Virus record (IMG/VR): IMGVR_UViG_3300012001_000020
Span: 1-42,474 of that record
DNA length: 42,474 bases
From: a virus
Reading direction: 5' to 3' (one strand)
This document shows positions 7,410 through 21,076 of the stretch, one piece after another (the stretch's first letter is position 1; every line of letters begins with the position of its first letter). The position numbers and the translations under genes are program-made. The notes under the pieces are model-generated. The model saw only the letters and a program-made list of their open reading frames with translations. It was not told the origin of the DNA and searched no databases.

Positions 7410-10400
7410 TCAGAAGGTATTTGCTAGATTGGCTTCCAGAGCCGGAAGCTGCGGAGGATCGCCTCCGCTACCATGATAATTCGCTCCCATATAATAAGTG
7501 TAGTAGATACCAAGGTTGCCGCCGGCAAACCATGTCCAACCGAGATAAACATCAGCGTTGGTGGTGAAGTAGGCCGGGATCGTCGGTCCTACGCCGCTCA
7601 TGCAGGTTACATCGTTGCCATAGGCAAATTCAGTGACCAAGGTTTTGAAGCCATTGGTTCTCAGCCATGCGGTGTAAGTGTCGAAGTATGATCCCACGGA
7701 ATTAGAAGAACAGGTCTCCAACGATCCAAATCCACCATCGAAGTACTGATGGGTATCCATCAGGAATGGGCCACCAACAGGATCGGTATACCCAGCCCAC
7801 TCGGTATATTTGAATGAGAAAACATTTGGGACGGTAGGTATAATGTAGGTGACCGTGGAACTGATTGGCCTAATTTTCGCCGTTACCGCCGCCATCATTG
7901 CAGGCGAATGGCCCGTCGTATTCCAGTTAGGTTCATTTTGGATTCCAAGCAAAATATTTGGATAATTCAGGAAGTAAGAGAGCATCCGCGCCCAGGCGTC
8001 ACCAAATCCTTCTTTCGGAACTCTGACATCATAACCCCACACGGGGAAGGAATAGGTTCCACCGTACGCCTGACTAACCTCGTCAACAGTGCCGACCGGG
8101 AACGGATTTATAGTGCCCCCGTAAGAGTGGTCATCCAGAATGACATATTGTCCGTTCGCGCGAGCCTGTTCGACGCAGGACTGCAACGCCAAGATATGAG
8201 CGGAATTGAAATTGGCAAATAGCTGCGATATTACGCCGGGCGCAACTACCGCAGAACCTACTTGCTGCATATGACTGAACAGGAATGAGACACGCAGGGT
8301 GTTCAGACCTTTTGACGCGGCCCACGTATAGAAGTTAGACTCGTTGGGATAGGCGGGAGATGTCCAGTTATCGCCCCCGCCTAAATCGAAGCCTTTGTAA
8401 TGCCGGGGAAGCGTACCGGCAGTGGCAACCGGCGTAAACGGCGTCGGCATTGCCTCGGCTGCGATATTGGTGATGGTATTCGAAGCGCTCGCTGTCAACC
8501 CAACGCTGTTGGTGACGGTCAGCGCAAAGGTCGTCGTGGTGCCTACCGTCGTAGTCGTTGGAAGCCACAGTAGATTACGCAGTGCTCGCGTGAGCTTTGC
8601 AGGCGTCATCGCTGCAAATGTGTATGGACCTGTGCCAGACGGTGCTAGCGTGGCATCCCATGGATCGGTGAGGGGCTGGCCTACTACTCCGAGATGCGAA
8701 AGCGTTCCGGCAGAGCCAGAAACCGCAATCGAGGCGCTGACGAGTGGCGACGGATTAGCATCGGTAACGCTAACTTTCCAGAGCGCCGGCGCGCCTTGAG
8801 TTTCGGAAACGTTCGGTCCAACCATCCCGGATATCACCGGGGCAACTGCGGTCGAGATGGTAACGGTCGGATTTGCGCTGCAAGTCAACGCGGTCGAGCT
8901 AGTCACCACCATTGCAACGTCGGTGACCGCGCCGCTCGCTCCAGTCGTCGTAAACTGGAGTGCCTGCATATTGGTGTTGATATTGGCGACAGTATCGCTG
9001 GTCAGCGTATAGGGGCCGGTGCCAGTAAGGCCGGTGCCAGACAGGGTTGCAGCATTGCCGGTCAGGGTAAAGACGATACTATCGGAAGTACTAGCCACAT
9101 CCTGAAGTACAAAGGCGGAAAATGGCGTCCCGGCGACGCCGGAAGTGGCGTTACCGTTGGAAACTTTGGTCAGGATCGGCGGCAGCGTGTCAGGCAGCGG
9201 CGTCGAATAGTGCGTCGTCTCGTAACCAAGACGTGTCGTTTGCTGGCCTGAAGTCAGCGACACGCCGGGGATGAACCATAGATCCTGCTCCTGCCCGTTC
9301 CAGTTACCGCTGCCGAATTGGCGATCACCAAAAAATACTTCCTGCGTACTGAAAGCAGCATTGAGCGTGTAAGTACAGGTCGCTGTCGAGAATTGCGTTC
9401 CATCCTTATATGAGATCAGCCCATTGGTAACGCCTGACGAATAAGTAACGGAATAATCGTGATACGCGCCGGAGACGATCCCAGTAGCAACGAAAACAGT
9501 TGGATTGCCCTCGCCCCCGACATGGGTGCCTCCGACAAAGCCGGTATTATAGATTTCAAAGGATGTCGGTCCCCAGATAATCGGTCCGGTGTACCAATCC
9601 ATTGCGAACAGGCCTTGCCCGACACTGGCGCCTTGGTTAATACGAGCGCCAACCGTCATTTGTGTTCGGCCGTTGACCGCGAAATTAAAAGTACCATTCG
9701 CTGTAGTATGATTTATTTCTGGATAACCAGCCGCATTTTGCAACGTCAACGTCGGTAACGTGCCAGCGAATGTCCTGTTAAAACCAGCCGCACTTTGATC
9801 ATATGATATCAATACCGGAATGCCGGACTGCTGCCCGGCCCACGCCTGGATAGCTACGCGGTCAAGGTTGTCGCCTTTGGTGAACGACCAGTTTTGAATT
9901 GCACCGGTGGTCGGATGCTTCAACTGATAAGCAGTACCGATAAACGGCGTATAGCTGCGGTACAAACTAAACAGCGGCGAAGGTGTTTCTCCGATAGCCG
10001 TCCATGCATCCGCCTGCGTCGATACTACCAGCGCGGGCGGATCGGTCCAGCCTTGGTTATTGGTTGTTGAAATCAGGAGGGTGTCGACGACAGCCGGGGT
10101 ATAGGTGAATGTCGCAAGCGCGTTTTCGCCGGGCGTCAAGGTAATCGAAGACGGCGTAAAGGTACCACCAGCCGAAGTCACGCCATCGGACAGGTATGCG
10201 TGAGGAGTGATTACGGCACCTGAAGAAACGATGCCTCCATAGATGATGGTGAACGGATCGGTCGCGATGCCCGAAGTGCCGTAATAGTTGGTACTGATAA
10301 TTGGATTTTCTGGATCGCCAGACGAAGTAATTGTGACCGGCGGCCGTAATGCGTAGGCCGTAGGCTGTGGTTGCGGATTGGTGATATAGTGATTGATGAA

Positions 10401-12515
10401 CCCGGCCACCAGCACCGACTGCACACCCGTCGCCGTAAAGTCGGCCGCTCCCGTCGCTGGGTTATACGGCGCTGGGCAGAACGGATAACCATATGGACCA
10501 GCACCAAATCCAGGTCCTGCCCCCCACAGCATGATAGGTATATTATTTGCCTGGCAGAGATCGCCGGTGTTCCTGCCGATAGTGAGCCAAGCTGGATAGT
10601 TGTTATTACCGCCCTTATAAATCGGATCGGTGCTGATGCCGAATTCGCCGAGCGCTCCTTTAACGTTGTGCGTAACGAGCCAAGGCATGTACTCCCTCGA
10701 CATGCGTGTGAGGCCAATGGTTGGATTGGTATCGATACCAGGAGGCGAGACGCCCGCGGTAACAGATTCGATTGAATAGGAAAAATTAGAGCCGCTTGAG
10801 TCACGATCGAAATAGGAGTGAGACGGGAATACCAGATTATTGAGCGGATCAACGACTTGATAAAGATTAGCATTGTTGAACGGCTGGCCTTGCCCGGTTA
10901 CGTAATTCCACGATCCGGTGAAGTTGGTGCCATCACAATGGATTTGGCCGGTGAAGTTGATAGGAGAAGCCCGCAGTGCGGCGGTACACTGGTTGCACCA
11001 GTCCATGATCACCGATACATCAAAGCCATTGACCGGCTCGTTCATCAACTCGATCGCGTACAGCGATGCCCTTGAAGCGTAACGGGCGCCAACCTTGCTC
11101 CAAAAGTCGACCATAGCGGAAACTGGCAGTCCGGGCGATCCGACCGCAAGCCCGCCGGGACCACCGCCGAACTGATGGCAGTCAAGCATGATATTTACGC
11201 CGAGCGAATCGGCGAGATCAAAGACATCGTCCAACGCCTGAACATAGCCCGCAATGGTCGGCTTGTACGGAAGAGGCGCCGATCCGACGTTGACCTGGGC
11301 CTCGGAGAATAAAATGTTGATTGAAAGGTTGCTGCTGCTGCCGCCGAATGGTGTAATTTGTGCCCAGACTTGCGCCGTGGATAGATTGGCCGTCGTCGAG
11401 GCAAATTGCCACGAATTTGTCAGGGTCAAGGTTTGGATAACGATTTCACCGCCCTGATAGAAATTCATCTGGAAGGTTTTGCCAATGTCACCTGGCGTCC
11501 CCGCCATGTAGCCGAGCCCCCACGTATTGAGACCTGTCCAACCATAGGGACCAGCCTCAAAAACCTGATAGGTCGTGCCATCTGGGCGCACTGCGGAGAG
11601 CAAATGCGCGGGGAATCCGTTAGAATCGGTAGCGACATTAGGCGTGACGGTCATTGATCCAGACGGTGCGTAAGTCGACCATGGCGCAGCGGTTGGCAGA
11701 TCCGAATTGAAAAGTCGATTAGTGCCCTGCAATGGGTAATGGGTGGCGGTGGTATCGAGCGGACCATAAGCGATGGGCTGGATGCCGGTCGTTCCGAAAG
11801 TCAGATTCGCCTGCGACCAACTGAATGGAAATCGGTAATACTTGATTCCGCGCACTGCCCAATAGGTCAGTTCGGTTGGGCTGACAAATACCGGATACCC
11901 GTCCTCCGCACCGGAAATGTTCAGAGCTAAGTAGAAATCAGGAGGCGGAATCCGACCGGCTACCGTGTTGACGGCAATCGTTGCGATATTACTGCCTGCC
12001 GACACCAAGCCGGAAGCGTCGGAATAAACCGCTCCGCTCGTTCCATCGTTGGCCAATATCTGAATATCAGCGGTCGCGATGGTGCTCAGAGATGGCGTAA
12101 AAATGGCGGTGAAATGAGTCGTATCAACTTGCGTCAGTGAACCAATGGTTCCACTTGTCACCGAAAAAGCAGGTAGAGTAAAATTGATAACTGCATCGTT
12201 CCATGTGATGGAAATTAGAGCAGTCTGGCCAGCAAAAACAGTGGTTGGAGTGGACGAAATTGTTGATGTTAAAGGTGGTGGTGGCGGAGGTGGAATTGGA
12301 AAGCCACCGATATATTCCAGCACAAACTGTTGAGGGATTGAAATTCCAGTTGCGATAAGGCTTATCGTATAAATACCATTTTGTGTGATGGTATTCGCCT
12401 CAACCATACTGTTCCCGTTGATGTTAAAATACTGACCTGGATTGCTGGTAATCGTGAACGTAGCTCTGCCGACACCGGATTCAGATAGCGTACCGACTAG
12501 ATCTCCTATCGCCAT
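7410..12515 (-). CDS. Giant secreted/virion protein with two GH5 cellulase-like domains (1701 aa)
   Basis: One uninterrupted frame. Residues 1-72 form a beta-rich cadherin-like domain, then a run of seven prolines (75-81) and an Ig-like domain (about 84-185). The first GH5 domain (about 190-710) has LDCH (His447), MNEP with Glu493 as acid/base, His566 in SHSYFD, GEFG with Glu624 as nucleophile and MLWG with Trp664. A LamG/AbfB-like jelly roll follows (about 835-1105), then cadherin-like repeats (about 1110-1355). A second GH5 domain (1371-1701) has DDHS (His1463), IQNEP with Glu1528, THQYFD (His1589), TEFAYG with Glu1629 and GWTWF (Trp1660). Both domains keep the catalytic pair, so both may cut beta-glucan or related exopolysaccharide. 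No clear signal peptide. It lies downstream of the late operon, suggesting a virion-attached or released depolymerase; substrate unknown. Confidence 0.85.
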   Translation of the reverse strand: MAIGDLVGTLSESGVGRATFTITSNPGQYFNINGNSMVEANTITQNGIYTISLIATGISIPQQFVLEYIGGFPIPPPPPPPLTSTISSTPTTVFAGQTALISITWNDAVINFTLPAFSVTSGTIGSLTQVDTTHFTAIFTPSLSTIATADIQILANDGTSGAVYSDASGLVSAGSNIATIAVNTVAGRIPPPDFYLALNISGAEDGYPVFVSPTELTYWAVRGIKYYRFPFSWSQANLTFGTTGIQPIAYGPLDTTATHYPLQGTNRLFNSDLPTAAPWSTYAPSGSMTVTPNVATDSNGFPAHLLSAVRPDGTTYQVFEAGPYGWTGLNTWGLGYMAGTPGDIGKTFQMNFYQGGEIVIQTLTLTNSWQFASTTANLSTAQVWAQITPFGGSSSNLSINILFSEAQVNVGSAPLPYKPTIAGYVQALDDVFDLADSLGVNIMLDCHQFGGGPGGLAVGSPGLPVSAMVDFWSKVGARYASRASLYAIELMNEPVNGFDVSVIMDWCNQCTAALRASPINFTGQIHCDGTNFTGSWNYVTGQGQPFNNANLYQVVDPLNNLVFPSHSYFDRDSSGSNFSYSIESVTAGVSPPGIDTNPTIGLTRMSREYMPWLVTHNVKGALGEFGISTDPIYKGGNNNYPAWLTIGRNTGDLCQANNIPIMLWGAGPGFGAGPYGYPFCPAPYNPATGAADFTATGVQSVLVAGFINHYITNPQPQPTAYALRPPVTITSSGDPENPIISTNYYGTSGIATDPFTIIYGGIVSSGAVITPHAYLSDGVTSAGGTFTPSSITLTPGENALATFTYTPAVVDTLLISTTNNQGWTDPPALVVSTQADAWTAIGETPSPLFSLYRSYTPFIGTAYQLKHPTTGAIQNWSFTKGDNLDRVAIQAWAGQQSGIPVLISYDQSAAGFNRTFAGTLPTLTLQNAAGYPEINHTTANGTFNFAVNGRTQMTVGARINQGASVGQGLFAMDWYTGPIIWGPTSFEIYNTGFVGGTHVGGEGNPTVFVATGIVSGAYHDYSVTYSSGVTNGLISYKDGTQFSTATCTYTLNAAFSTQEVFFGDRQFGSGNWNGQEQDLWFIPGVSLTSGQQTTRLGYETTHYSTPLPDTLPPILTKVSNGNATSGVAGTPFSAFVLQDVASTSDSIVFTLTGNAATLSGTGLTGTGPYTLTSDTVANINTNMQALQFTTTGASGAVTDVAMVVTSSTALTCSANPTVTISTAVAPVISGMVGPNVSETQGAPALWKVSVTDANPSPLVSASIAVSGSAGTLSHLGVVGQPLTDPWDATLAPSGTGPYTFAAMTPAKLTRALRNLLWLPTTTTVGTTTTFALTVTNSVGLTASASNTITNIAAEAMPTPFTPVATAGTLPRHYKGFDLGGGDNWTSPAYPNESNFYTWAASKGLNTLRVSFLFSHMQQVGSAVVAPGVISQLFANFNSAHILALQSCVEQARANGQYVILDDHSYGGTINPFPVGTVDEVSQAYGGTYSFPVWGYDVRVPKEGFGDAWARMLSYFLNYPNILLGIQNEPNWNTTGHSPAMMAAVTAKIRPISSTVTYIIPTVPNVFSFKYTEWAGYTDPVGGPFLMDTHQYFDGGFGSLETCSSNSVGSYFDTYTAWLRTNGFKTLVTEFAYGNDVTCMSGVGPTIPAYFTTNADVYLGWTWFAGGNLGIYYTYYMGANYHGSGGDPPQLPALEANLANTF

Positions 12516-12661: not shown

Positions 12662-13411
12662 ATGGATCTTGAGGTAGACAATATTTTCTCAGATCTCTTC
12701 TCCAGGTCAGATATAATTAGCCGATCTGGGAAGCGTCTTAGTACATACAACGGCATCTCAAAAGACGAAGTCGAGATGATATATGATACGATAGCGAAAG
12801 ATGAAACGGTCTTAAAAACGCTTGAGGTAGGTTGCGCGATCGGCTTCTCTTCGCTTGCAATAACAAGCGCGCTAAAGGGACGCCCGAACGCTCACCATAC
12901 CATCATCGATCCTTTTCAGATTTCCATGTTTGACCGCGCCGGCATTGATTTGCTGGAAAGCAAAGGCATAAAACATTTTGATTTGATAGAGAACGGATCT
13001 CAAATCGCACTGCCGAACCTGTTGGATAAATCAGAGATATTCGATTTAATCCTGATTGATGGTTTTCACTCTTTTGAGCAGGCCATGTTGGACATTTTTT
13101 ATTCTACGCGGTTATTAAGGCAGGGAGGCTATCTGGTCGTTGACGATTCCTCATGGCCCGCCGTAGCAAAGTCTGTTGCCTATTACGAAAACCAACCATG
13201 GCTGAAACTGCACGACAGACCAAAGCCGATCGACCCGGTGAGCGCGGCGATCTGGAAAATTCTAGGAACGAGAGTTCTAAGAAAGATCGCGGTACGCGTG
13301 CTTCCTAACAAGCTCATGCATACCCTGAACGTAAAGCGTTTCGGCACGATGGTGATACTGAAAATGGTTTCTATTGTTGATCAAGAATATTACAGATATC
13401 ATTTCTTTTGA
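12662..13411 (+). CDS. Class I SAM-dependent methyltransferase (249 aa)
   Basis: TLEVGCAIGFSSLAITSAL (about residues 57-75) is the SAM-binding motif I, followed by HHTIIDPFQ with the acidic residue of motif II, and FDLILIDGFHSFEQAMLDIF plus GGYLVVDDSSW, the pattern of Methyltransf_24 enzymes acting on sugars or small molecules. The gene is clearly richer in A+T than its neighbours and is the only plus-strand gene between 7.4 and 21 kb, both signs of a recently acquired moron. GAGGGGG precedes the ATG. Substrate unknown; LPS or exopolysaccharide modification is possible, given the glycan-related genes around it. Confidence 0.8.
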   Translation: MDLEVDNIFSDLFSRSDIISRSGKRLSTYNGISKDEVEMIYDTIAKDETVLKTLEVGCAIGFSSLAITSALKGRPNAHHTIIDPFQISMFDRAGIDLLESKGIKHFDLIENGSQIALPNLLDKSEIFDLILIDGFHSFEQAMLDIFYSTRLLRQGGYLVVDDSSWPAVAKSVAYYENQPWLKLHDRPKPIDPVSAAIWKILGTRVLRKIAVRVLPNKLMHTLNVKRFGTMVILKMVSIVDQEYYRYHFF

Positions 13412-13476: not shown

Positions 13477-14358
13477 CTACCACCGCGCCGCTAGGTAGGC
13501 ATCCAGCGACGTTTTGTCAGCAGAGCTGAGAGCTTGGTTATAGATGATGATCTCCGAGGCATTTCCATTAAACCTTGTTCCTGTTGTGAGGTTATTGGAG
13601 ATTGATGAGCCTATTGCTATTCGGCCTGCCGTGATGCTTGCGTTGGCGTTGGCCGTTGATGTACCTGCCACATTGTTTAGATAGCTAGTACCCTGTGTTC
13701 CATCGTTGACGTATCCTCCCCTAAATGGGGTAGCTAACCCTGCAGCCGTGGTCGCGCCAGAAAGCACGTTACCTTTTCCCCCGAGGAATGCGGTGGTAGT
13801 CGCATTAGCCAAGATGAAATATGTACCTCCGGTACTACCTGGTGAACCCGAAGGCGGGGCGTACGAAACGACTACGTCGTAATTGCCAATTGATGCCCAT
13901 TGCATTTCGGCAAAGCCAGAAATAACGCTGCCGGAGCCCATCGCCACCCCTGCGGCTGTATACAGATATTGATTCTGTGCGCCGTTAACAAAGGTTACGG
14001 TAGGTTTACTATGAAGACCCGTTAAAGAATAGGTAGGGAGATTAGCCCCAGCGGTGATGGCGTGATAACCATTCCCGCTTTTATCTTTCCAGCAGCCAAT
14101 GGTGCCTGTGTTGGTTGTTTGTGGGGTAGTACAGCCCGTATCTGAAAATATATTAGTGTTGTCATTGTCGGCCTTGTACCAGGCAATCAATCCAGCCGGT
14201 GTTTTCGGGGTCCATGCGGGCGGCGTCACCGTTCCGCTTCTTCCCTTGGCCCCAAGTTTTCCGAATCGATCGCCTTCGCCTAATCCAAACGCACTTGCCG
14301 CAGCTATCGAAGCTGCAAACAATAGAATTGCGATTGCCCGCGCGGTTAAGCGATACAT
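13477..14358 (-). CDS. Secreted LamG/concanavalin-like protein (293 aa)
   Basis: Starts with a signal-peptide-like stretch (LTARAIAILLFAASIAAASA), then a linker and a LamG-type jelly roll: PAGLIAWYKADNDNTNIFSD, GCWKDKSGNGYHA, YLNNVAGTS, ASEIIIYNQALSSADK and a final LDAYLAARW. These LamG hallmarks bind glycans or proteins. Having a signal peptide, it is probably exported by the host rather than packed in virions, perhaps a lysogenic-conversion surface protein; alternatively a virion appendage with a hydrophobic N-terminus. A terminator lies just upstream. Confidence 0.7.
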   Translation of the reverse strand: MYRLTARAIAILLFAASIAAASAFGLGEGDRFGKLGAKGRSGTVTPPAWTPKTPAGLIAWYKADNDNTNIFSDTGCTTPQTTNTGTIGCWKDKSGNGYHAITAGANLPTYSLTGLHSKPTVTFVNGAQNQYLYTAAGVAMGSGSVISGFAEMQWASIGNYDVVVSYAPPSGSPGSTGGTYFILANATTTAFLGGKGNVLSGATTAAGLATPFRGGYVNDGTQGTSYLNNVAGTSTANANASITAGRIAIGSSISNNLTTGTRFNGNASEIIIYNQALSSADKTSLDAYLAARW

Positions 14359-17860: not shown

Positions 17861-19717
17861 CTAGCTATCTTGCGTGATGTCGATCTTTGTGACGCTGCCG
17901 GTAACGGTGTTTTTGCCTAAGCCACTGTCTTGCGTCGCAAAGATGGTCACGACGTTCGTTTCCGCCAGCATCACCACATCATCGATCGCAAAGGTTTGGG
18001 CGGCCAATCCTCCGGCATACAAGGTGACGACGCGGCTCGCGACGCCGTTGACGTAAATGCTGATCGTCACGGTGTTGCCGAGAGTCAAGGAGGCGATCTG
18101 CACCGCCGCGGCAATCTTGTAGCGGGCGGCTATCGGAGCCGTGAACGCGGATGCCGAAAACGCTGCGTGCGTGTCGATGCTGTCAGTCCCAAACGTGATT
18201 TGCGTCGCGGTTCCTGCGACGGAAGTCGCAACGCTGGCAAACGCCACGACACAAACCTTGTTGCCATCGACGATCGAATTGGCGCTGGTCCCCACGTCGA
18301 GACCAGAATAGCGCACCATCCCTGACGAGTTTTGGCTGACGCCATCGCGAAATCCGGCGTCGCTGTTGAGGAACCGATTGCGCAGCACTGAGGTAGATGC
18401 CGTGGTCATGATGTAGGCATAGACTGCGGCCGTGGTAGGTCCAGCGCCGGTCACCGTGCGGTGATAGTTGCTGTCGAATGTCGTGTTCCAGACTTCCTTG
18501 GTGCCGCCGTCGCCGAGTACTACATGGTTCTGCGGCCGCATGAACGCCGATCCGGATGTCAGTGTCGGGCCAGTGGTGCTGTTATAGGTCTGCGACAAAA
18601 AGCGGTTCTGCGCGATGCGGTGATTCCGGCATCGCAGCATCCATATGTGATAATTGAAGTTGGTATCGAACTCGTTGCGCTCGATGGTGGCGTTGAAGCT
18701 GACGCCCTCGACCGATGCGTCTATCAACATGCCTCCGGCGGCGCTATAGGTACCGTTAGCCACCACCAGATTGTCGGTGAACATGAACTGCCCGGTGGTG
18801 TCATAGATACCGCCGCCGGCATTGTTGGCGATGGTCGCAAACTGCATTTGCCATAGGCCAGGGGATTGGCCGCCGGCAAAATTGACGCCCCACAGTGTGC
18901 AGTTGGTGAACGCGCACTGTTGAAAATTCAGCGAGAAACACTGCCAGTAATCCGAAACGGCGGCATAAATATCGGAACGATAGGGCACGTAGACGCCATT
19001 GCCAGACATGAACTCCACCCATACATCGGTGAAGCGGACATTCCATGCCGCCGTCAGCCGGATGCCGTCGCCGCCGGTAACGCCAGCGGCCTGCGTGATT
19101 AACATGCCGGTAACCGAAGAATCGCGGGTATATTTGCCGGCCGTCGCGCTTGTGCCGTTTGGCACGTAACCTACGTCCCACAGCAGCGCCGCGCCATTGT
19201 TGGCGGTCAGTACGATGTTGGTGCTGCGCCCCTGACCGACCAGATTCATGCCGTTGACAAACTCGGCGGTGGCGCTGGTCAGTCGCTTGATGCCTGTGGT
19301 TCGGAACGTGCCCGACGGAAAATGCAGATTGGCGCCGTTGGCGGCCACGACTGCGGCGTTGATATCTGCCGTTGCGTCGTATGTCGTAGTTCCATTGGTG
19401 ATGGCAGCATGCTGCGCGGCTGGAATGAAATCGAACACGTTGTACTGGTCGGCAAGTTTGTCCGCGAGGTTACGGGTGTTGCCGCCGAGCCACGTTGGCG
19501 TATAATTGATGTTGGCGGGATCGGTCGGCCCCGCCGGCCCCGTTGGCCCGGCCGGCCCCGTTAGCCCCGTTGCCCCCGTTGGCCCAGCCGGACCGACAGG
19601 GAGTGCGTTGATATCTAAACTGAACGCATATAGAAGTCCGGTTTTTGCCAACAGCAAAGGACTTGCGACGGTAACTACAGCGGGAAACTGCGTTCTGATT
19701 TTTAACTTTATCGCCAT
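17861..19717 (-). CDS. Tailspike with collagen-like and beta-helix domains (618 aa)
   Basis: A short N-terminal beta domain is followed by a collagen-like stretch of GPxGPx triplets (about residues 42-65), then TPTWLGGNTRNLADKLADQY, a junction typical of podovirus tailspikes. A long right-handed parallel beta-helix follows (about 110-480: VVAANGANLHFPSGTFRTTG, NNAGGGIYDTTGQF and similar rungs), and a C-terminal C1q/jelly-roll-like domain (about 490-618) that probably trimerises. It binds and probably cuts host surface polysaccharide; catalytic residues cannot be assigned by eye. Confidence 0.85.
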   Translation of the reverse strand: MAIKLKIRTQFPAVVTVASPLLLAKTGLLYAFSLDINALPVGPAGPTGATGLTGPAGPTGPAGPTDPANINYTPTWLGGNTRNLADKLADQYNVFDFIPAAQHAAITNGTTTYDATADINAAVVAANGANLHFPSGTFRTTGIKRLTSATAEFVNGMNLVGQGRSTNIVLTANNGAALLWDVGYVPNGTSATAGKYTRDSSVTGMLITQAAGVTGGDGIRLTAAWNVRFTDVWVEFMSGNGVYVPYRSDIYAAVSDYWQCFSLNFQQCAFTNCTLWGVNFAGGQSPGLWQMQFATIANNAGGGIYDTTGQFMFTDNLVVANGTYSAAGGMLIDASVEGVSFNATIERNEFDTNFNYHIWMLRCRNHRIAQNRFLSQTYNSTTGPTLTSGSAFMRPQNHVVLGDGGTKEVWNTTFDSNYHRTVTGAGPTTAAVYAYIMTTASTSVLRNRFLNSDAGFRDGVSQNSSGMVRYSGLDVGTSANSIVDGNKVCVVAFASVATSVAGTATQITFGTDSIDTHAAFSASAFTAPIAARYKIAAAVQIASLTLGNTVTISIYVNGVASRVVTLYAGGLAAQTFAIDDVVMLAETNVVTIFATQDSGLGKNTVTGSVTKIDITQDS

Positions 19718-20140: not shown

Positions 20141-21076
20141 TCAGAGCTTCAAATATGTCGTTACGAATATGGTAGGCTGGATAATTGGATGCGCGAGCCC
20201 TCCAGTATTGGTGGAAGTCAAATTTCCGCTAGGGGATAATCCAGTCGAACTTAGCGCTCCACTCCCGTTTCCTGCACTGATTGCAGTGCCACCGACTCCA
20301 AACGAGAAATTACCTAGAGACCCGCGAACAATATCAGAATATGCACCAGAAGAAGTTATCCCAGCCGGCACCTGAGCAAGCGTAAGTGCATACGTCTGCG
20401 CGCCTCCGGCGCCACCAATCCCGAACCCGGACATGCCTGACGTGGGGGTCAATCTTCCCGCCGCGCTGTTGCCCATGTCATCAAACCCGGCGAGAACGCG
20501 GCCGCGGAAATCGGGCAATGCAATGGTCTTGGGAGCAGCCCAGTCAGCCGCCGCTGATATGCCGCGACCACCTGAAACGGCCAAGCCAGCGTCTACATTC
20601 CAGAGAAACGCGAACAGTGCAGAGGTATCCGAATTTGCCCGTTCAGTCGCGCCCGAGGTGGCTGATCCGATCGTCCTTGCATTGGCGCGAACAAATCCGG
20701 TAATAACCCCCGTTCCATAGACGGCCTTGATATCGCCGGTTGTCAGGATAGTGGTCGGATCGATCGATGCGCCTCCACCTCCACCGCCCGAACTTGGCCC
20801 CGTTACCGGAATATTGTCATGATTGAATATCTGAACGCCGGTTGAGTCAGTCATCCTGACCTTGATATAGCCGTCCGCAAAGTAGACCTGCGGCATCCGG
20901 CCATCGGCTAGAAGCGTGTACGGGTTAGGCCAGGGCAGCGTTAAGCCCAAGTCCTGAAAGGCATTTTGAGGCGTAGCGACGGTTCCGGCCTGAATGAAAT
21001 ATACCAAGGCTCCGCTATATGGAGATCCCGAGGGGGCAAATTGCTGGGCAAGCGAAAGGGTGATACTACCAGCCAT
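20141..21076 (-). CDS. Tail fibre/collar-domain protein (311 aa)
   Basis: The N-terminal domain (SLAQQFAPSGSPYSGALVYF to about 95) looks like a tail-attachment domain, followed by a Gly-rich linker. IALPDFRGRVLAGFDDMGNS (about 190-210) and the end HPIIQPTIFVTTYLKL match the phage Tail_Collar fold of short tail fibres. It would contact the host receptor together with the tailspike. Confidence 0.8.
   Translation of the reverse strand: MAGSITLSLAQQFAPSGSPYSGALVYFIQAGTVATPQNAFQDLGLTLPWPNPYTLLADGRMPQVYFADGYIKVRMTDSTGVQIFNHDNIPVTGPSSGGGGGGASIDPTTILTTGDIKAVYGTGVITGFVRANARTIGSATSGATERANSDTSALFAFLWNVDAGLAVSGGRGISAAADWAAPKTIALPDFRGRVLAGFDDMGNSAAGRLTPTSGMSGFGIGGAGGAQTYALTLAQVPAGITSSGAYSDIVRGSLGNFSFGVGGTAISAGNGSGALSSTGLSPSGNLTSTNTGGLAHPIIQPTIFVTTYLKL

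Follow-up and report, generated by a model that had tools for sequence, protein, structure and literature searches.

Introduction

Phage depolymerases of the GH5 family are already known. Infection by the Erwinia phage S6 requires host cellulose, and this phage encodes an active GH5 enzyme, gp095 (PMC9544554). Some Klebsiella phages likewise depend on cellulose genes (PMC13412088). In peatland soil, a virus-encoded GH5 enzyme proved to be an active endomannanase (PMC6786970).

The DNA described here, called the window, is the whole 42,474-nt stretch of the IMG/VR record IMGVR_UViG_3300012001_000020. It belongs to a tailed, soil-type phage with terminase, portal and head-closure genes, distantly like the cyanophages Pam1 and Pam5. 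One of its genes encodes two GH5 domains (D1 and D2) in a single chain. In the literature, of which the coverage was partial so that absence is no proof, no description was found of a single chain that carries two GH5 domains around a conserved spacer, in an arrangement that recurs in unrelated phages and is once fused to a neck protein.

Organization of the Double-GH5 Protein

The minus-strand frame of the gene is one uninterrupted ORF of 1701 aa, and many stops occur on the plus strand there. The Pfam profile PF00150 recognizes two GH5 stretches in the protein (E 2.2e-35, 122.9 bits; cut-off 23.5). It also recognizes each half separately: scanned alone, the C-terminal part of D1 reached 56.2 bits (4.7e-15) and D2 74.5 bits (1.3e-20), against the same cut-off of 23.5. 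A preliminary description, made from the DNA letters, had announced a 1701-residue phage protein with two intact GH5 cellulase-like domains, and this assignment stands for both halves.

That description had also placed a hinge of seven prolines and an Ig-like domain in front of D1, and both are found there (Table 1). Between the GH5 domains, it had seen a jelly roll and cadherin-like repeats. Two cadherin-like repeats are indeed present; the supposed jelly roll has to be corrected to a beta-sandwich homologous to a module that Pfam names ArabFuran-catal in a relative, L093.

The beginning of the protein is less familiar. Residues 1-72 have no sequence relative among the phage records, the PHROGs and all fetched ORFs. 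Apart from the Big_12 domain in Pfam, residues 1-190 gave no match in phage records or PHROGs, and no recognisable N-terminal virion-attachment domain was found in them with phage records, PHROGs and Pfam. The protein has no signal peptide.

Table 1. Features of the double-GH5 gene and its product, in window positions.
Feature	Residues	Position	Strand	Basis
Dual-GH5 protein, whole ORF with stop	1-1701	7410..12515	-	ORF translation, Pfam
Short beta-rich N-terminal domain	1-72	12300..12515	-	structure prediction, sequence searches
Hinge, seven consecutive prolines	73-81	12273..12299	-	translation
Big_12 bacterial Ig-like domain	83-158	12042..12269	-	Pfam
D1, first GH5 domain	192-715	10371..11942	-	Pfam, alignment, fold search
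Insertion in the barrel of D1, beta-rich in a low-confidence prediction	236-422	11250..11810	-	structure prediction, profile match split
Glu493, D1 acid/base	493	11037..11039	-	alignment, position check
Glu624, D1 nucleophile	624	10644..10646	-	alignment, position check
Beta-domain with GGTFTPSSITLTPG... motif, common to L213 and L228	720-830	10026..10358	-	alignment
Lectin/GH54-like beta-sandwich, homologs in L093, L088, L213 and L228	831-1112	9180..10025	-	alignment
Two cadherin-like repeats	1113-1366	8418..9179	-	translation, comparison with relatives
D2, second GH5 domain	1367-1701	7413..8417	-	Pfam, alignment, fold search
Glu1528, D2 acid/base	1528	7932..7934	-	alignment, position check
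Glu1629, D2 nucleophile	1629	7629..7631	-	alignment, position check
Terminator-like hairpin immediately upstream of the GH5 start codon		12534..12551	-	consensus match only

Fold and Active Sites of the GH5 Domains

Among solved structures, the closest sequences are those of GH5 endoglucanases like Xanthomonas CelA and RBcel1, and the same PDB chains are matched by both ends of the protein. AlphaFold2 models of D1 and D2 were built from 47-row alignments. Their mean pLDDT is 60 and 56, and only the cores of the GH5 domains are modelled with confidence, with values mostly >90 at residues 431-540 of D1 and of 70-94 across most of the D2 barrel. The top Foldseek matches for both domains are XacCel5A structures (E 4e-16 and 5e-21), with TM-scores over the target of 0.86 for D1 (against 5hnn) and 0.83-0.85 for D2. 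The core of D1 is modelled as a (beta/alpha)8 barrel, and the predicted folds of both domains match those of GH5 endoglucanases of the XacCel5A/RBcel1 type, in line with the earlier GH5 reading. They are most like GH5 subfamily 5, as judged by the top sequence and fold matches, RBcel1 (GH5_5) and XacCel5A, and not by a subfamily profile.

In RBcel1, Glu135 is the acid/base, Glu245 the nucleophile and Tyr201 a helper tyrosine (PMC8900817). For the protein of the window, Glu493 and Glu1528 had been named as acid/base and Glu624 and Glu1629 as nucleophile; these positions are exact, and their columns hold Glu in 47/47 aligned GH5 sequences. D1 possesses the complete signature of eight GH5 residues (R228, H447, N492, E493, H566, Y568, E624 and W664). 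D2 has seven of them (R1408, H1463, N1527, E1528, H1589, Y1591 and E1629), and its beta-8 position, Trp in 46 of the 47 rows, is occupied by Phe1663. Supporting His and Trp residues, said to be kept in both domains, are thus complete in D1; in D2 the His residues are kept but the beta-8 Trp is not. D2 is nevertheless placed in GH5 because of its fold and its catalytic Glu pair. Judging from their GH5 homologs, both domains would be endo-beta-1,4-glucanases. GH5 contains many specificities, and the substrate might be another one than cellulose, since the soil-virus GH5 is a mannanase (PMC6786970).

The barrel of D1 is interrupted by an insertion of about 185 residues, which has no sequence relative among the phage records, the PHROGs and all fetched ORFs. 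D1 and D2 barely recognize each other in BLASTP (E 0.001), and therefore do not result from a recent tandem duplication, as had been concluded from their strong divergence. Such a duplication is also rejected by the comparison with a related contig, L088, in which the corresponding domains are nearer to D1 and D2 than these are to each other.

Double-GH5 Proteins in Other Viral Contigs

Scans of viral contigs with single sequences (the whole protein, D2 alone and the C-terminal part of D1) gave no close relatives. When IMG/VR was scanned with alignment queries, 25 contigs with GH5 relatives were obtained. A single frame with two GH5 domains is present in five IMG/VR contigs besides the window: L088/L212 (1365 aa), L213 (1296 aa), L217 (1578 aa), L228 (1399 aa) and L233 (801 aa, ended by the contig edge). 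Two GH5 domains in one phage chain had been called unusual. This is true of the 50,697 phage records, in which tblastn revealed no dual-GH5 counterpart, but at least five viral contigs besides the window have the layout. Neither S6-type proteins nor the endoglucanase of the Klebsiella phages LASTA and SJM3 were detected in this tblastn search of the phage records. Its sole match, MT835628, was set aside as an unverified fecal scaffold; its other ORFs are of Bacteroidota outer-membrane and glycan-use type, and it is probably cellular.

A genome scan with an alignment query gave no cellular protein of the window layout, and only one of 147 cellular ORFs (L109) has two GH5 domains. This 776-aa protein of an alphaproteobacterial MAG (9827-12154) is a cellular tandem, made up of two GH5 copies that are nearly equal, and differs from the phage layout.

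L088, L213 and L228 share a middle region with the window (E 1e-25 to 1e-30 against the window) and keep the order GH5, beta-domain, beta-sandwich, GH5. A GG-x-FTPSS-x-L-x-PG stretch is found in the window and L213, with a near variant in L228. In a FastTree tree of the merged GH5 domain alignment, the D1 domains of these four proteins form one group (local support 0.995). The D2 domains of the window, L088 and L213 cluster with L093 and a Beijerinckiaceae enzyme (support of the wider group 0.94), and that of L228 falls outside. A shared ancestry of these domains is likely and not proven, because the branches are long, including both of those from the window, and an earlier IQ-TREE run gave a warning on them. 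L217 and L233 are devoid of the shared middle region and may be separate inventions. Directly behind its double-GH5 gene, L088 encodes a third, very divergent GH5-like protein of 429 aa (10877-12163).

The R-H-N-E-H-Y-E set is invariant in the readable columns of the phage GH5 domains examined; the match of L225 stops before the nucleophile position. The beta-8 Trp is replaced in four phage domains (window D2, L217_D2, L228_D1 and L234), versus none of the 43 cellular rows, all of which keep it. Split GH5 matches, indicating barrel insertions, also occur in D1 of L088, in both L228 domains and in L235, and in 0/147 cellular ORFs with the same profile, a contrast that is suggestive and not a census, as the cellular set was picked by conserved motifs. 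In L235 (9551-12769), one GH5 domain is apparently spread over ~870 residues, with two barrel insertions of ~400 and ~160 residues.

Genome Context and Host

The late genes of the window are located on the minus strand. A tail fibre with a beta-helix is encoded at 17861-19717, and its N-terminus is common to relatives. The adaptor that opens this tail fibre gene and its relatives is missing in the double-GH5 protein, whose gene lies outside the late block, with an opposite-strand methyltransferase gene and the terminator-like hairpin in between. As none of 50 viral contigs carrying a related endolysin has a GH5 gene, it represents a lineage-specific acquisition and does not belong to the regular gene set of this phage group.

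The methyltransferase gene (Methyltransf_24; 12662-13411, plus strand) adjoins the GH5 gene and runs opposite to the late genes. Its G+C content is 0.446 versus about 0.54, and it is probably a recent cargo gene. It is followed by a minus-strand gene (13477-14358), the 293-aa product of which has a lectin-like body, bears a signal peptide and matches a PHROG named "virion structural protein" (E 7.5e-14). A tail protein encoded at 20141-21076 on the minus strand has homologs in L002, L020, L021, L029, L031, L045, L047, L060 and L074. Sec-type signal peptides are present on its homologs in many related alphaproteobacterial phage contigs (8/20 under a crude rule, and L002 on visual reading), and the window copy has none. 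Between tail fibre and endolysin, on the opposite strand, L047 contains an acyltransferase-like gene (7911-9971) and L021 a gene resembling those of polytopic membrane proteins (8681-9952), both read by eye; they are possibly surface-polysaccharide-modifying genes of the seroconversion type.

A rhizobial host had been suggested for this phage. Relatives of its endolysin reach 62% identity and occur in 26/397 genomes of the Hyphomicrobiales, the order of the Beijerinckiaceae MAG that encodes the nearest cellular relative of D2, a secreted enzyme. In the order of Gluconacetobacter, they are at most 41% identical and occur in 8/250 genomes. A Hyphomicrobiales host is therefore likely, with relatives both closer and more frequent there; the suggestion holds only at the order level.

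Possible Role of the Protein

The clearest indication of a location comes from L213. The N-terminus of its double-GH5 protein is a Phage_tail_terminator_9 domain (PF23961, 39.1 bits, cut-off 27), and the gene is flanked by neck/head genes and tail-sheath genes. Based on this neck-terminator domain and this position, the L213 protein is very probably carried on the virion particle. In L089-L091, a single GH5 domain forms the C-terminus of a fibre-like ORF, which in L089 is situated directly behind the tape measure, distal tail and tail-fibre/J genes. The double-GH5 gene of L088 stands among structural and fibre genes, followed by the endolysin. By analogy with these relatives, the protein of the window phage may be a virion protein as well.

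On balance, it is probable that this protein is a virion-borne dual endo-beta-1,4-glucanase directed against the exopolysaccharide (a beta-1,4-glucan) of the host, where activity, substrate, virion location and host order are what we infer. The GH5 fold and residues, the layout conserved in L088, L213 and L228, the neck fusion in L213, the gene context in L088 and L089-L091, and the S6 and Klebsiella precedents all argue for it. Against it stand the unmatched N-terminus without a fibre adaptor, the separation from the late operon, the signal peptides at the N-termini of the L093 and L228 relatives, the soil-virus mannanase, Phe1663 and models whose confidence is limited to the GH5 cores.

It is plausible that the protein acts as a depolymerase. 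It would be mounted laterally on the neck or tail of the particle, with two retaining GH5 barrels at opposite ends of the chain and the beta-domain, beta-sandwich and cadherin-like repeats between them. The beta-sandwich and Ig/cadherin domains would attach to the polysaccharide that surrounds the host and extend into it, and both barrels would cleave exopolysaccharide with beta-1,4 linkages (bacterial cellulose or a similar glucan), allowing the particle to reach the cell surface. Final recognition would be left to the normal beta-helix tail fibre.

Alternatively, the protein could be a soluble depolymerase, made late and freed at lysis, which is absent from the particle and clears the exopolysaccharide or biofilm of neighbouring cells for the spread of the progeny. 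We regard this as rather unlikely, yet as a real rival, because the protein has neither a recognisable virion adaptor nor a signal peptide; without the latter, release would need lysis. The lack of a domain in common with the tail fibre, the place of the gene outside the late operon and the signal peptides of L093 and L228 fit such a release. The neck-terminator fusion of L213 and the tail-gene context of L089 do not. As homologs of the tail protein of this phage group have signal peptides too, these alone are no argument against a virion role.

It is improbable that the gene is an auxiliary metabolic gene, whose product would degrade plant polymer to feed the infected host or would spread carbohydrate-degrading capacity among hosts. 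Soil viruses do encode glycoside hydrolases, including the active GH5 endomannanase (PMC6786970), the cellular protein closest to D2 is a secreted enzyme, and the spot beside the methyltransferase looks accessory. However, a protein lacking a signal peptide would have no access to plant polymer while infection proceeds, and its 1701-aa length, the phage-specific shared architecture and the fusion to a virion part in a relative point away from metabolism. Finally, Phe1663, the long insertion in the D1 barrel and the long tree branches of both domains would suit a receptor-binding protein whose GH5 domains, one or both, act as binders instead of cutters. D2 would be the likelier of the two to bind, given the substitution at beta-8. 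This reading is improbable, however, given that the Glu pairs and the Arg/His/Asn/His/Tyr residues are kept in every phage GH5 examined except the truncated match of L225.

Returning to the virion-borne glucanase, the double-GH5 layout recurs in several unrelated phages and is once fused to a virion structural part, which suggests that some phages carry a two-enzyme tool against the cellulose-like slime around their hosts. Tentatively, these proteins might constitute an undescribed virion protein family of tailed phages, with two GH5 glucanases on the ends of a conserved lectin-like spacer, gripping and cutting beta-glucan at two points. Such a family would extend across unrelated phages, attached to neck or tail, with repeated insertions of modules into the barrels and a specialised second enzyme with a changed beta-8 residue, which would act on another bond or serve as a grip.

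If the virion-borne reading is right, a dedicated class of virion proteins with two enzymes each would attack the cellulose-type exopolysaccharide of soil and plant-associated bacteria, and the single case of S6 would be widened to several unrelated phages. In plant-associated bacteria, host cellulose could then be tested as a phage receptor or barrier, and naturally paired endoglucanases would be on offer for biofilm work. It also calls for caution against automatically filing phage cellulases as auxiliary metabolic genes.

Comparison with Known Systems

The cellular enzymes XacCel5A (4w7u/5hnn) and RBcel1 (4ee9), a GH5_5 endo-1,4-beta-glucanase (PMC8900817), have the fold and catalytic residues of the window domains. 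Unlike the protein of the window, they are single-domain enzymes of about 320 aa without a long insertion, and they have Trp at the position where D2 has Phe. The soil-virus endomannanase is likewise a virus-encoded GH5 enzyme from environmental metagenomes, but it was read as an auxiliary metabolic gene and acts on mannan (PMC6786970). In the Klebsiella phages LASTA and SJM3, a putative endoglucanase gene adjoins tail-related genes, and exopolysaccharide degradation has been proposed (PMC10052179). In contrast to the window, one putative endoglucanase E1 gene is described in these phages (PMC10052179). In S6, gp095 is a GH5 beta-1,4-glucanase with accessory N-terminal domains, like the window protein, and S6 also has two cellulases per phage, gp095 and its partner gp094 (GH48) (PMC9544554). 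The two S6 enzymes are, however, separate proteins of different families, whereas the phage of the window combines two GH5 domains in one chain.
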